A stretch of DNA of 64,000 bases from Pseudotamlana agarivorans. GTDB taxonomy: Bacteria > Bacteroidota > Bacteroidia > Flavobacteriales > Flavobacteriaceae. A program made the position numbers and the translations under genes. How positions within the stretch are numbered: the stretch's first letter is position 1; each line of letters starts with the position of its first letter. A model generated the notes under the pieces. It had not been told where the DNA came from, ran no database searches, and saw only the letters and a list, made by a program, of their open reading frames with translations. Positions 12,521 to 16,929 of the stretch are shown here, piece after piece. The DNA lies in assembly GCF_001642835.1 (NCBI RefSeq), contig NZ_LXEI01000014.1, forward strand, positions 62,001-126,000. Reading direction: 5' to 3'.

Positions 12521-12573
12521 TATTGTAAAACAAAATATTGAGGCTTTTCAAAAAGTCTTTTAATATTGTATTT

Positions 12574-12598
12574 GTCAGGTTGAGCCTGTCGAAACCCT
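12574..12598. repeat. Short intergenic repeat-like motif
   Basis: GTCAGGTTGAGCCTGTCGAAACCCT belongs to the 'TTGAGC..TGTCGAAA' type of short dispersed motif often seen between genes in environmental bacteria. It lies at the left edge of the accessory island. Only one copy is evident in the window. Confidence 0.4.
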
Positions 12599-12655
12599 TA
12601 TGTTGTATACAATTAAAGAATAATATTATCAAAACAACGAACTAAAACAAAAAAT

Positions 12656-12955
12656 ATGATTTCAAGAGTAAAAGTTGATGGAAATTATCTCGAAACAATA
12701 GACGAAAAAGGTAAACGAATTAAAAGGTCATACAACAATGGCGATTTTTTAGGAAACTCATCTGAAATAGTTGTCGTTCAAGATGGAAATTATCTTGAAG
12801 TATTTGATGAAGATTTAAAAAGAATTTCAAGAACTTATCAGAAAATAGATAGATTTTTAGGTGCTTCGGGAACGACTTTTTCTGTTCAAGTTGGAAATTA
12901 TGCAGAAACTTATGATGAAAAGGGTAAGAGAATTAGTCGCCAATACTCAAAATAG
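12656..12955 (+). CDS. Small three-repeat protein, first gene of the KAP island
   Basis: A 99-residue soluble protein made almost wholly of three imperfect repeats of about 35 residues. Each follows the pattern [DV]-GNY-x-E-[TV]-x-DE-x-x-KRI-[KS]-R-x-Y and starts near residues 8, 43 and 78. The first two repeats are followed by a F-L-G linker. The pattern looks like short beta-hairpin repeats, and no catalytic residues are evident. I do not recognise a named family. The stop codon is 2 nt before the KAP NTPase ATG, so the two are probably cotranslated. A role as a sensor or binding partner for the NTPase is a guess from position only. Confidence 0.7.
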   Translation: MISRVKVDGNYLETIDEKGKRIKRSYNNGDFLGNSSEIVVVQDGNYLEVFDEDLKRISRTYQKIDRFLGASGTTFSVQVGNYAETYDEKGKRISRQYSK

Positions 12956-12957
12956 TT

Positions 12958-14859
12958 ATGATAAAATCAAGCATTACAGATAGTCCAAGAAACCTATCAA
13001 ATGGAGAATTAGATAATTTTGGAATTGAACCTTTTGAGAACGGACTCACCAAATTCATAAACCTTACTAATACACCAATTACAATAGCACTTCAAGGAGA
13101 ATGGGGAAGCGGAAAAACCTCATTAATGAATAGTTTGAAAAAGAATTTAAGTGATAGTAATGATTCAAAATATTTTTCGATTTGGCTAAATACTTGGGAA
13201 TATGCTTTAATGAAAGATGCGTCTTCTACCTTAATTGACATAATTTCTAAACTAATTGATGAAGTTTCTAAAATTGCAAACGTAGAAAAGGAAAGAAAAA
13301 ACAAAATGCTTAAAAGCATCAGAAATATTGGTTTTTCAACACTAAAGGTTGCGAGTTCCTTAAATAGCATAACTAACTCTGCAATGAACGAGATTGAAAA
13401 ATCTCTAAATCAAGAAGAAGATATTACAATAAGTCAAATTAGAGATGAACTCGAACAAATCATTGAAAAATGTATTCAAGATAAAAACAAACAAGGTATT
13501 ATTTTCTTTATTGATGATTTGGACAGAATTGACCCACCAGTTGCAGTTCAACTTTTAGAGCTTTTAAAAAATATATTTACACTAAAAAATTGTGTTTTTG
13601 TTTTAGCAATAGATTATGACGTTGTAATAAAAGGATTAGAACCAAAATTTGGTAAATTATCAGAATTAAACGAAAGAGAATTTAGGTCTTTTTTCGATAA
13701 AATAATTCAAGTTCCTTTTTCTATGCCAGTTTCTAGGTATGAAACTGATAAATTTTTAAAAGAAAGTTTATTGTCAACTAACTACATTAATGAAGAAAAT
13801 GCAAGTAACGTTGAGTTAATTGCAAAATTTTCGGAAATTTCAAATTTATCAGTTGGAAAAAACCCAAGAGCTTTGAAAAGGTTAATGAACTCCCTTTCAT
13901 TAATTAGCTGTATAAATTCAACTAAAGTACTAACAGAAGAAAATGACCAGCTAAATAATGAATTAGAATTATTAGTAAACTTTGCTTTAGTAAGTATTCA
14001 GATTGCTTATCCTCCAGTTTACAGACTTTTATCACTTCATTCTGGCTTTGACAAATGGAACGAAAGTGTTGCGTTACAAATGAATTTAAAAGAGCTTGAC
14101 CAACAAAGCATTGACAAATTAAATCAATCGGAAGAGTTTGATGAAGAATGGGAGAAAATTTTATTTCGTCTATGCGAGAATGACCATTATTTAAAAAAAC
14201 GAGCTTTAAATATTTCAAGACTGTTAAATAGTTTAAAAAAATCAATAACGGAAAAAGAAGAAGAGATTGAAGATATTATTGGAGCAGTAATCTCTCTTTC
14301 ATCTGTTACAAATCTTGAAGCGTTTGACAAGCCTGTTGTAGATTACCACAAAGGTTGGTTATTAAAAGAAATAAGGAATAGACTTTTTCCAGTTTTAAAG
14401 AAAAAAATACCAAATGCTAACGACATAAAACAGATTGGTACGAGAATACAAAGTAACTTTAAATTCTACATAAACAAGGGCGTTAACTTTCATATGAGTT
14501 CTTATCCAAAGGATGGGAAAATAAATCTATATATTAACACAAACGTTTGGTACGGAAATGATATTAATGATTTCAGAAAAGATTTAGAAAACAACAATTT
14601 ACTTGCTGAATTTGAATCAATAAAAAATGAATTCGATACATACTCTAAAACAAGCAGTGATTTTATAACACAAAATTTATTTGATTTAGGAAATTGGAAA
14701 AATCACTATTATATTAATTTTCATAGCGACTTAATTCTGTCTAAACCAGAAGATTTTTTCACAGAAGAAACCATCGAAAAAATTAGTGATCATATTATTA
14801 AATTAAAGGAGTTTAGAACTAAAGTGCTGGTAATATCAAATAAAAGGAATAATAAATGA
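12958..14859 (+). CDS. KAP family P-loop NTPase
   Basis: A 633-residue protein. Walker A is GEWGSGKTS (47-55). Walker B is IIFFIDDLDRIDPP (181-194), the FIDDLDR form characteristic of KAP NTPases. A segment of about 85-175, rich in Lys, Glu and Ile, is inserted between them, as in other KAP proteins. KNPRALKRLMNSL near 300 is the usual sensor-like block. The C-terminal half (about 330-633) has no domain I recognise. Known KAP members include the phage T7 exclusion protein PifA and eukaryotic KIDINS220; many are patchily distributed and linked to mobile DNA. The stop codon overlaps the next start (ATGA). Codon use is notably AT-rich, which suggests transfer. Confidence 0.9.
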   Translation: MIKSSITDSPRNLSNGELDNFGIEPFENGLTKFINLTNTPITIALQGEWGSGKTSLMNSLKKNLSDSNDSKYFSIWLNTWEYALMKDASSTLIDIISKLIDEVSKIANVEKERKNKMLKSIRNIGFSTLKVASSLNSITNSAMNEIEKSLNQEEDITISQIRDELEQIIEKCIQDKNKQGIIFFIDDLDRIDPPVAVQLLELLKNIFTLKNCVFVLAIDYDVVIKGLEPKFGKLSELNEREFRSFFDKIIQVPFSMPVSRYETDKFLKESLLSTNYINEENASNVELIAKFSEISNLSVGKNPRALKRLMNSLSLISCINSTKVLTEENDQLNNELELLVNFALVSIQIAYPPVYRLLSLHSGFDKWNESVALQMNLKELDQQSIDKLNQSEEFDEEWEKILFRLCENDHYLKKRALNISRLLNSLKKSITEKEEEIEDIIGAVISLSSVTNLEAFDKPVVDYHKGWLLKEIRNRLFPVLKKKIPNANDIKQIGTRIQSNFKFYINKGVNFHMSSYPKDGKINLYINTNVWYGNDINDFRKDLENNNLLAEFESIKNEFDTYSKTSSDFITQNLFDLGNWKNHYYINFHSDLILSKPEDFFTEETIEKISDHIIKLKEFRTKVLVISNKRNNK

Positions 14860-15359
14860 TAAATTCTTTTGCAGCCATAGATTTTGAAAAAGCAACAAGA
14901 CATCATGTTTGCTCTGTTGGAATAGTAACTGTAGAAAATGGAGAAATTATTGATGAATATCACGCATTAATAAAACCACCTAACAACGAGTATAATTGGC
15001 ATAATGTCCAAGTTCACGGAATAACCGAAAATGACACTTTAAGCGTTCCGTTTTTTCCCGAAATATTTCCTGAAATAAAAAAACGTATTTATGGTAAAAC
15101 ACTAGTTGCACACAATGAAAGTTTTGATTGAAGTGTTTTATTTAAAACAATGCAAGATTATAATATCGCATATTCAGAGTTAAATATTTCAACTAAATGG
15201 GAATGTACTTTAAAAATATATAGAGCAAAAGGATATAATTCAGCAAGGTTAAATTCTTGTTGTGAAGTTCATAACATAGAATTAAAACATCACGAAGCAT
15301 TATCTGACGCTCGTGCTTGTGCTTAACTTTTTCTAATTGCTCAACAAAACATAATATAA
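14856..15359 (+). pseudogene. DEDDh 3'-5' exonuclease (DnaQ-like) with two in-frame stops
   Basis: One reading frame encodes a complete DnaQ-fold exonuclease. Motif ExoI is AAIDFEKA (D9, E11), ExoII is VAHNESFD (D91) and ExoIIIe is HHEALSDA (H146-x4-D151). The frame is broken by TGA at 15129-15131 (codon 92, where relatives often have Arg, so CGA to TGA is likely). It is broken again by TAA at 15324-15326 (codon 157, probably AAA to TAA). Without them it would end at 15357-15359, overlapping the next ATG by one base. Its ATG overlaps the KAP stop codon. The frame and all motifs survive, so inactivation looks recent. The first 91 codons alone lack the third motif and should be inactive. Confidence 0.85.
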
Positions 15360-16672
15360 TGAACAGTCATTTAAATATCTTCAAATCCTACACGAATACT
15401 AACCGTACTTACCAATTAGAAAATGATTTAACAAGAGCTTTAGCAATATCACTTCAAGAAGATTCTCTGTTTTTTCATGAAGTTTTTAAAGAAATATTAA
15501 AAGGCACGAATTTTTATAATCAGCTTTTTGAATCATTAGAAAGTGAAACTAATGTCAATATAAATATTCAAAAAAGAGCAAGTCAAATATCTAACTTTGA
15601 CCATGTTTTCGCTATTTCCTTAAGTGAATCTGAAATTTCTGATTTTTGGGAACAAAATTATAATAAGAATTATGACCCAATTTGTGATTTAGTAATTCAT
15701 ATTAACAATATCGTACTTGTTTTTGAGGCAAAACGAGATAATGTTAACTGTACTGCTCAACTTTATAACCAAATACTAAATATTACAAATACAGAAAACG
15801 AACCACAAGAATTCAATAAAGCAAACTATGGAAAAGTAATTACACCATTTGATTTTAATTGGCCAAGACTTATGGCAATTGCTGTTAAAGTTTCGAGCTT
15901 TGAAAAAACTATGAATAGTCAGAATAGATTTTTATCTGACTTTATATCTTTAGTAAAACAACATAATTTCAGATGGCTACCAGAACCTTCAATATCTGCT
16001 CTACAACCGACAAATAAACATGCAATTTTAAGAAGACTTGAATCAACAATTGAGGAAGTTGCGAAAACTACGGAAATAAGTAAATTAAATTACAATGATA
16101 GACTAGGTCTTGAATTTTACAGAAATTGGGCAAAAGAAATTCTTTTCAGCATTAATGATAAGGGTAATTTAGGTGTTAGCATATATCCAGGAAATACAAA
16201 AGGTCAAGGATATAGTCTTTTTGAAAATAATCCAAAATTTAGTGAAAAGCTAAATATTTTAGGAAATGAATACAAAACTAAATACAGCTATCACGTTAAA
16301 TTAACGAGTTTTCAAAAATATTTTCAAGGACTTTGGTTTTCAGAAACGGATTTAAAAAAACCACTTTACACAAAAGAGAATTTCAATAAATATACTGGAC
16401 GCAAAAAAAGAGGGCATCAATGGGAACAATTATCATCATTATTGGATGAAAGTCTAAATTATGATTGGAAAAAACAATGCGATTGGGAAAATTCCGTAAT
16501 AGGTTCAGGCAAAAATCAATTTGACATTTCATTCGGATATGAAGTTCATATTGAGATTCCATTCCAAAAGCTAAAAGAATTAGACCAAAAACAATCTGAA
16601 TTGAATAATTTGATAAATTTAATAAAGGAAATACATAAAAGTTTCAGTAATGAATTATTATTGAGGAACTAA
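15359..16672 (+). CDS. PD-(D/E)XK nuclease-like protein of the KAP island
   Basis: A 437-residue soluble protein from the ATG at 15359; the frame opens earlier, but this ATG overlaps the exonuclease frame's TAA, a typical coupling arrangement. D110 in YDPICDLVI, followed 13 residues later by E123-x-K125 in LVFEAKR, is a canonical PD-(D/E)XK active site. It is preceded by a helical block (ENDLTRALAISLQED) like the first helix of that fold. The remaining ~300 residues carry no motif I know. It is the last gene of the four-gene run and is followed by non-coding structured DNA. It is probably a nuclease effector; its target is unknown. Confidence 0.72.
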   Translation: MNSHLNIFKSYTNTNRTYQLENDLTRALAISLQEDSLFFHEVFKEILKGTNFYNQLFESLESETNVNINIQKRASQISNFDHVFAISLSESEISDFWEQNYNKNYDPICDLVIHINNIVLVFEAKRDNVNCTAQLYNQILNITNTENEPQEFNKANYGKVITPFDFNWPRLMAIAVKVSSFEKTMNSQNRFLSDFISLVKQHNFRWLPEPSISALQPTNKHAILRRLESTIEEVAKTTEISKLNYNDRLGLEFYRNWAKEILFSINDKGNLGVSIYPGNTKGQGYSLFENNPKFSEKLNILGNEYKTKYSYHVKLTSFQKYFQGLWFSETDLKKPLYTKENFNKYTGRKKRGHQWEQLSSLLDESLNYDWKKQCDWENSVIGSGKNQFDISFGYEVHIEIPFQKLKELDQKQSELNNLINLIKEIHKSFSNELLLRN

Positions 16673-16848
16673 AGCAACTGCACACAACAATGCATATCCA
16701 TGATAGTTAGTCAGTTGCTTAATCGGAAGTTCAGACATGTTTGCGAAGTCCGCCAAATTTTTTAATTGGCTTATTGAAAAGAAAAGGTAATAAAAAAATT
16801 CGGCTCGTGCTTAATCGAAAAATATCGCTAATTTAAACGCTACGAGCC
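16672..16848. other. Structured non-coding block after the island
   Basis: The 257-nt gap between the nuclease-like gene and the APC permease holds three stem-loops. AAGCAACTG/CAGTTGCTT lies at 16672-16680 and 16712-16720, perfect with a 31-nt loop. GCCAA/TTGGC is at 16752-16770. GGCTCGT/ACGAGCC is at 16802-16808 and 16842-16848, also perfect. Text such as GCTACGAGCCATATACAA resembles sequences I recall downstream of accessory genes in other Bacteroidota. That suggests a recurring boundary or recombination element, but it is unverified. Confidence 0.5.
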
Positions 16849-16929
16849 ATATACAAGACCGGCAAATACCTACTTTAAGCTCAATACGACAATAATTATA
16901 ACTTTTTCAAACCGCCTTTTTCTTAAAAA

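Follow-up and report, generated by a model that had tools for sequence, protein, structure and literature searches.

What is the four-gene operon that occupies positions 12656-16672 of the 64,000-nucleotide stretch of Pseudotamlana agarivorans contig NZ_LXEI01000014.1 analysed here (the window): a defence system in its own right, or the content of a larger mobile unit? Its genes encode a small repeat protein (REP), a KAP P-loop NTPase (KAP), a disrupted DEDDh exonuclease and a PD-(D/E)XK-type protein (PDX), and had been put forward, from the DNA alone, as an undescribed anti-phage island (the original prediction). Our results favour the second answer. The operon is likely the cargo of an integron-type cassette moved by a tyrosine recombinase via an attC-like site, and this cargo would be a KAP-centred, probably anti-viral module.

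An insertion between two core genes

The operon is an insertion, because the genes on either side of it nearly abut in genome G004 of the same genus (about 170 bp apart, against 4.4 kb in the window), both flanking proteins being 97% identical between the two. Presence or absence among related strains, a comparison proposed by the original prediction, is thereby documented by an empty site. BLAST homology to G004 ends at 12602 and restarts at 16877, and by eye the right flank of the window is about 13 bp shorter than in G004. In three further genomes of the genus (G001, G002 and G005), 0.65-0.8 kb separate the flanking genes and the flanks alone align; G003 was uninformative, its two flanking genes being located on separate contigs. 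The operon has a GC content of 28-30%, compared with 35-39% in the adjoining 2-kb segments. The island announced by the original prediction did turn out to be accessory and nuclease-linked; on sequence grounds, the whole operon is better described as a single integron-type cassette at a secondary site, outside the arrays and between two core genes. Neither the 190-bp attC-like site nor the insertion status of 12603-16861 relative to G004 had been recognised in the original prediction. The features are as follows:

12603..16861, + strand: complete inserted gene cassette of 4259 bp, running from the base that follows the left crossover to the final G ahead of the right one (empty site, cassette grammar)
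12602..12603, no strand: left insertion junction (the G004 alignment stops at 12602)
16861..16862, no strand: right insertion junction (G004 comparison, cassette grammar)
16680..16869, + strand: attC-like site of 190 bp, with its 5' arm at 16680-16688, a conserved hairpin and the crossover after 16861 (R1 model, see below)
12656..12955, + strand: REP, 99-aa three-repeat beta protein, putative sensor or adaptor, predicted propeller-like fragment (open reading frame (ORF), structure prediction)
12958..14859, + strand: KAP, P-loop NTPase of 633 aa (Pfam, PADLOC and NCBIfam matches)
14856..15359, + strand: DEDDh (DnaQ-fold) exonuclease frame, disrupted by in-frame stops (RNase_T and DEDDh models)
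15359..16672, + strand: PDX, PD-(D/E)XK-type protein of 437 aa (ORF, candidate catalytic triad)

By eye, the insertion splits a palindromic repeat (12565-12602 and 16862-16900 in the window) that is whole in G004, and the missing 13 bp or so belong to its right arm.

attC-like sites and cassette grammar

Segment 16676-16861 of the window matches repeats that separate array genes in genome G184, where they open with ...AAC and close with G^TT.... A 4.34-kb cassette of that genome, related to the window operon and composed of repeat protein, KAP and GmrSD genes, is present in two copies that are 99.7% identical and have both ends precisely at repeat junctions. Altogether, 112 repeats were gathered from 17 of 26 stretches, the remaining nine being devoid of any. 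They formed 95 adjacent pairs, among which 79 were scored and 16 were dropped, one end being unrecognised.

In integrons, the first bases of a cassette can pair with the 5' arm of the attC at its own distal end. The same relationship was observed in the arrays: 67 of the 79 pairs were complementary at all six free positions (59 under the initial register rule, AACAAC cases having then been shifted by 3, post hoc and likewise in the shuffles), nine at 5/6 and three at fewer. In 2000 shuffles, the 6/6 count averaged 2.0 and never exceeded 8. Once identical ends were collapsed, 42 of 54 distinct ends were at 6/6, and in the control, which compared the two arms within one repeat, 6/6 was recorded in 4 of 88.

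Likewise, the alignment of 42 sites yielded one hairpin of 13 pairs, eight of them with changes on both sides. In this hairpin 97.6% of cells were paired, and covariation reached 0.430, compared with 0.119 in shuffled alignments and at most 0.107 with slid partners. Site lengths ranged from 130 to 209 nt. The repeats therefore combine the arms and the covarying hairpin of an attC-type site. The covariance model built from these 42 sites, named R1, scored the window site at 65.4 bits, this site being itself among the 42 sequences.

A tyrosine recombinase at the array head

Array heads encode a tyrosine recombinase of 364-406 aa. All 11 array-side stretches contained sites matching R1, against none of the nine on the opposite side of this head recombinase, and within each array-side stretch the sites shared a single orientation; the arrays thus display a site-specific recombinase at one end. 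Six of these 11 stretches (L142, L144, L150, L152, L156 and L158) had contributed sequences to R1 and five (L145, L146, L149, L153 and L162) had not. For two recombinases (G010:C5 and G311:C9) no judgement was possible, as the contig stops about 0.25 kb or less from the match. In L152, nhmmer also gave three weak antisense matches, which overlie plus-strand sites.

The head recombinases have a distinctive organization. The G184 protein aligns to solved VchIntIA (2A3V) in two pieces, residues 206-245 being skipped, and the spacing between catalytic boxes is 93 residues in 11 of 11 array-head recombinases versus 135 in nine of nine canonical IntI. Among four recombinases not seen at arrays, one also had 93 residues and three, with the same gap, fell outside the pattern. 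In the four head recombinases tested, about 95-115 residues precede the recombinase core. The integron integrase model TIGR02249 gave only matches below cut-off in all 14 genomes searched (including G000, the window's own genome, G184 and the L018 genome), as in all 14 control genomes. It was above cut-off in 105 of 395 phylum genomes, one from the same class and the others from the same phylum, none belonging to the same family. In a tree of 30 recombinases, the head type grouped with canonical IntI, separate from host XerC/XerD (100/99); it did not form a single clade, only three groups being sampled.

A divergent frame encoding a cysteine-containing protein of 123-133 aa was found directly upstream of the head recombinase gene in L132 (2430-2831), L137 (672-1043) and L131 (687-1088). 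This protein is perhaps a partner of the recombinase.

Distribution of sites and array cargo

Of 120 Flavobacteriaceae genomes surveyed, 107 had matches to R1 (106 of 119 genera), with at most 26 candidates scored per genome. At least five matches were recorded in 91 of these genomes and one to four in 16; the 13 genomes without any measured 1.3-2.8 Mb. R1 gave zero matches across 939 kb in 51 other loci. In G000, 55 matches were found, two of them weak. Forty were clustered on contigs C23, C24, C25, C30, C32 and C2 and at the ends of C11 and C50 (e.g. C50:1-889), and 15 lay elsewhere, eight of the latter being solitary, including that of the window cassette. Judged from sequence, the carrier would be an integron-like system, present in most sampled family genomes, whose integrase lacks the IntI-defining domain, and this part of the interpretation is firmer than the defence reading of the cargo.

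The scan of array cargo, which covered 88 of 95 array ORFs of at least 75 aa, returned matches to KAP, type IIG restriction, PD-Lambda-2, HigB, PemK and ParD. A ThsB-like TIR gene (L018 10693-11250) lies in a cassette adjoining the KAP operon of Polaribacter sp. Z022. Five copies of a leucine-rich-repeat-like gene, identical over 792 bp, lie within some 17 kb of the G184 array (L097 87-878, 6368-7159, 11667-12458 and 15669-16460, and L163 19083-19874). Outside the family, a weak R1 match (E 7e-4) was recorded at L171 4343-4478 (G716), on a contig that also bears a distant PDX relative; attC-like sites may extend beyond the family.

Coding content of the operon

The four frames are consecutive on the + strand and the tight arrangement given in the original prediction was confirmed, with 2 nt between REP and KAP, an ATGA overlap between KAP and the exonuclease frame, which starts at 14856, and a TAATG overlap between the latter and PDX at 15357-15361. 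KAP matched Pfam KAP_NTPase (E 5.5e-40), as proposed, together with the PADLOC models PifA (E 2.6e-32) and PDC-S20 (E 3.9e-28), and scored 91.9 bits with NCBIfam QatA, whose cut-off is 600 bits.

The third frame was correctly assigned to the DnaQ-fold exonucleases. Pfam RNase_T matched its first piece (E 1.4e-8), and DEDDh models matched both pieces, each searched alone (PADLOC PDC-S48, E 1.1e-16, for the first). The gene is not intact, however, as it is interrupted by two in-frame stops, TGA at 15129-15131 and TAA at 15324-15326. A decayed gene is a simpler explanation than an alternative genetic code, since two different stop codons are involved and the remaining three frames are normal. The stops could possibly be an assembly error. 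An intact homologue of 166 aa lies 3' of KAP in L018 (Polaribacter sp. Z022). Compared with it, the first piece displayed a dN of 0.057 and a dS of 0.75 (dN/dS about 0.08) and the second a dN of 0.020 and a dS of 0.63 (dN/dS about 0.03). With such low ratios, the breaks look recent and the exonuclease appears to have formerly been under purifying selection.

Neither REP nor PDX had a significant Pfam family match. The putative catalytic residues of PDX noticed earlier (D110, E123 and K125) are unchanged in all three aligned sequences. The structure predictions suggested at the time were informative for REP and not for PDX, whose AlphaFold model, obtained from three sequences, had a pLDDT of 42.2, too low for any use of the fold. 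REP indeed contains a 36-residue repeat (self-repeat z 16.6) and its AlphaFold model (pLDDT 95.7) has 11 strands and is free of helices. Foldseek returned no PDB match to it at E<=0.001; the top matches were generic propellers (E 1.0e-3), and the nearest in size was Helicobacter pylori IceA2 (E 4.3e-3, TM 0.64/0.67). REP is thus confidently predicted to be an all-beta protein resembling propeller fragments.

KAP neighbourhoods and mosaic organization

KAP relatives are patchily distributed, as had been stated: at E<=1e-20 they occurred in 10 of 397 family genomes, the window's own included. The closest KAPs are those of Polaribacter, Lutibacter and Flavobacteriaceae MAGs. Neighbourhoods were compared at 95 KAP loci, made up of 79 retained from 197 hits together with the G-genome loci, after 12 superseded ones were dropped. 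Their gene content contradicted the proposed four-gene system, since the REP family was adjacent to KAP in nine, the exonuclease family lay within 7 kb in four, and a PDX homologue was near KAP in the window alone. A repeat protein, KAP and exonuclease also co-occur in L018 and, with intervening genes, in L027 and L028.

Sequence conservation between loci follows gene borders. Segment 12951-15356 of the window is 80% identical to L018 at the DNA level and covers KAP and the exonuclease and nothing more. At the DNA level PDX (15358-16686) shares 83.6% identity with a gene of G201, whose product is 87% identical to PDX and is surrounded by 18 kb without KAP, REP-family or exonuclease homologue. 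The REP protein is 69-79% identical to the REPs of L100, L101 and L102, whose KAPs are only 40-41% identical, and just 33% identical to that of L018, though the L018 KAP is 80% identical. Breakpoints on gene borders and discordant REP and KAP identities therefore point to exchange at these borders. From such comparisons the operon is a mosaic in which putative sensor, switch and effector have been swapped, its steadier core being the small beta-repeat protein and KAP, and its nuclease genes being swappable. In G201 (L170 7085-9534), the PDX relative lies opposite a WYL-domain gene, which suggests that it acts alone or with the WYL regulator.

The association of KAP with small repeat proteins extends beyond the REP family. 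Strongly repetitive small ORFs (z>7, 30 shuffles) made up 15 of 62 adjacent to KAP versus 11 of 289 farther off; eight of these 15 belonged to the REP family and the others to five different families. The repeat partner of the L032 KAP matched Bflower_3 above cut-off (E 7e-9), and those of L024 and G184 matched IceA2 (E 4.4e-4) and Bflower_2 (E 0.0026) below it. Nucleases were likewise diverse: GmrSD is encoded downstream of KAP in L018, G184 and L028, the L020 partner is weakly Mrr-like (E 0.001, below cut-off), and a PDDEXK_4 nuclease gene lies just upstream of REP in L069 and L101. In these last two loci REP-KAP is located beside type I restriction genes (HsdR in L069, HsdM in L101), which supports the original prediction. 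By eye, the second KAP of the window genome (L008, G000:C1:752751-753602) adjoins an HsdS-like frame.

Clear R1 sites were found at the 3' end of the KAP operon in L018 and L020, with fitting start bases (by eye), the L018 operon site having its own G^TT altered. In L021, by eye, the start fitted with one mismatch, and the site was cut off.

Alternative explanations

Could the 3' repeats be terminators or REP/BIME-like palindromes, the operon having arrived by general homologous or illegitimate recombination? They are intergenic and palindromic, other palindromic repeats are present, and the empty site sits in one. Yet terminators leave unexplained the complementarity between cassette start and distal arm (67/79 at 6/6), the uniform orientation of R1 sites with a recombinase at one end, and the two near-identical cassettes ending exactly at the crossover; we regard this explanation as highly improbable. 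The proposal that the true integrase is a canonical IntI encoded elsewhere in the genome, the head recombinase being a bystander, appears very improbable as well. Canonical IntI does exceed the cut-off in 105 of 395 phylum genomes, in other classes, but in 0 of the 14 genomes searched (G000, G184 and the L018 genome included); none of the 105 positive genomes is marked as the same family, and sites accompany the head recombinase on the side of the array in 11 stretches and on the opposite side in 0 of 9. A stable four-gene defence system, combining beta-repeat protein, KAP, DEDDh exonuclease and PD-(D/E)XK nuclease, would fit the tight overlaps and the recurrence of repeat protein, KAP and exonuclease in L018 and, loosely, in L027 and L028. 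We nevertheless hold it very unlikely, as the window is the sole locus with PDX near KAP, the G201 relative has no KAP neighbour, the exonuclease is interrupted, and the swaps fall on gene borders.

A more serious contender accepts the cassette and disputes its function, the KAP operon being a membrane-stress, toxin-antitoxin-like or restriction-accessory module rather than an anti-phage one. The type I restriction genes adjoining REP-KAP in L069 and L101 and the HsdS-like frame next to the second KAP of the window genome would agree with this, as would the dispensability of QatA for part of Qat defence, according to PMC13279940. The nuclease partners, the PADLOC defence-family matches and the ThsB-like TIR gene of the cassette that adjoins the L018 operon speak for defence, and we consider a non-phage module possible, if doubtful.

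Several observations weigh against the cassette and defence interpretation itself. The start of the window cassette matches its own 5' arm at four of six positions only, the two mismatching ones being able to form G-T wobbles on the bottom strand. The IntI-specific domain (about 42 residues) is missing from the head recombinases. A clear R1 site at the operon is limited to three of the nine REP-family loci (the window, L018 and L020); that of L021, seen by eye, is cut off, in L091 the upstream match is weak (E 0.016), and at the operons of the other four (L069, L100, L101 and L102) there is none. Finally, with its exonuclease already broken, the operon may be decaying.

Proposed mechanism and implications

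An integron-type cassette with a KAP-centred cargo nonetheless remains our preferred explanation. Its boundaries, the empty site, the grammar shared with array cassettes, the covarying hairpin and the recombinase gene at array heads are all read directly in the DNA, and we infer that the head recombinase performs the cassette reaction, on a single strand. The enzyme would excise the cassette by way of the folded attC-like site at its 3' terminus, and the cassette would reinsert at a G^TT-like point; the window cassette would have landed off-array, between two core genes. An anti-phage role of the operon is plausible. In the most likely scheme, the small radially symmetric beta-repeat protein may sense or tether, KAP may be an oligomeric ATP switch, and the interchangeable nucleases (elsewhere GmrSD, PDDEXK_4, a weakly Mrr-like protein and the exonuclease, here PDX) may be the effectors of a chain leading from sensor to switch to nuclease. 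The exonuclease would once have served a GmrSD-like partner and, after PDX replaced this partner, become useless or burdensome.

More broadly, we are inclined to think that Flavobacteriaceae carry, near-universally, large chromosomal integrons run by tyrosine recombinases devoid of the IntI-specific domain, an independent or ancestral solution to cassette recombination, and that these integrons serve as a reservoir for the assembly of modular KAP defence operons and their scattering over the genome. Such integrons would have escaped notice through the dependence of searches on IntI; reports of complete integrons in Bacteroidetes are scarce. If this is true, cassette recombination has a second enzymatic basis, the origin of IntI becomes testable, and the trade of defence genes among these bacteria is accounted for. 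The rule that a cassette extends from G^TT to an attC-like site would allow many unknown accessory genes to be read as cassettes. The KAP operon, for its part, would be a modular assembly with sensor, switch and nuclease from different lineages.

Comparison with known systems

PifA is the KAP protein responsible for phage exclusion by the F plasmid. The operon shares its KAP domain with it (residues 9-315, E 2.6e-32), but the match spans just positions 7-315 of the 720 in the model and the window contains a multi-gene operon, so that membership was rejected. PDC-S20 and PDC-S48 match KAP and the DEDDh frame separately, and the gene set, the cassette and the swaps lie outside these PADLOC candidates. 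Assignment to GmrSD type IV restriction was likewise rejected, since neither GmrSD_N nor GmrSD_C was found by Pfam in the window proteins.

QatABCD also has a KAP NTPase within an operon, which is a defence operon in the case of Qat. According to PMC13279940, QatA is a DNA-binding protein that appears to form heptamers or octamers, and part of Qat defence does without it. Membership was rejected here too, KAP reaching 91.9 of the 600 bits needed for QatA and the operon proteins giving no match to the QatB, QatC and QatD models. Like IceA2 and the beta-flower proteins (IceA2, Bflower_2 and Bflower_3), whose fold is treated in PMC10584680, REP is a small, radially symmetric beta-repeat protein. 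In contrast to them, it has no sequence-family match.

Regarding the carrier, PMC8618304 and PMC9668308 both count Bacteroidota as an integron phylum but give no detail, and the latter cites integron integrases as requiring the extra domain. The IntegronFinder 2.0 article (PMC9024848) mentions earlier Bacteroidetes finds as In0 only; for Bacteroidetes proper it names a single complete integron, that of Salinibacter, besides those of Chlorobi and Ignavibacteriae. The open-access literature searched contained no account of such integrons in Flavobacteriaceae, although a prior report may exist.

The closest known counterparts are sedentary chromosomal integrons, which associate IntI with attC arrays, e.g. 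in Vibrio. The arrays described here differ from them as follows. Their head recombinase has no IntI-specific domain and has some 95-115 residues before the core in the four tested, their sites measure 130-209 nt, and the 3' box of these sites reads GTTR followed by free bases, instead of the attC 3' consensus GTTRRRY. The shared features are tandem cassettes mostly in one orientation, a site at the 3' end of each with a G^TT crossover, a 5' arm complementary to the start of its own cassette, a hairpin with unpaired bases, a recombinase at the array head, a cargo of toxin-antitoxin and defence genes, and solitary cassettes found off-array, as in the window.

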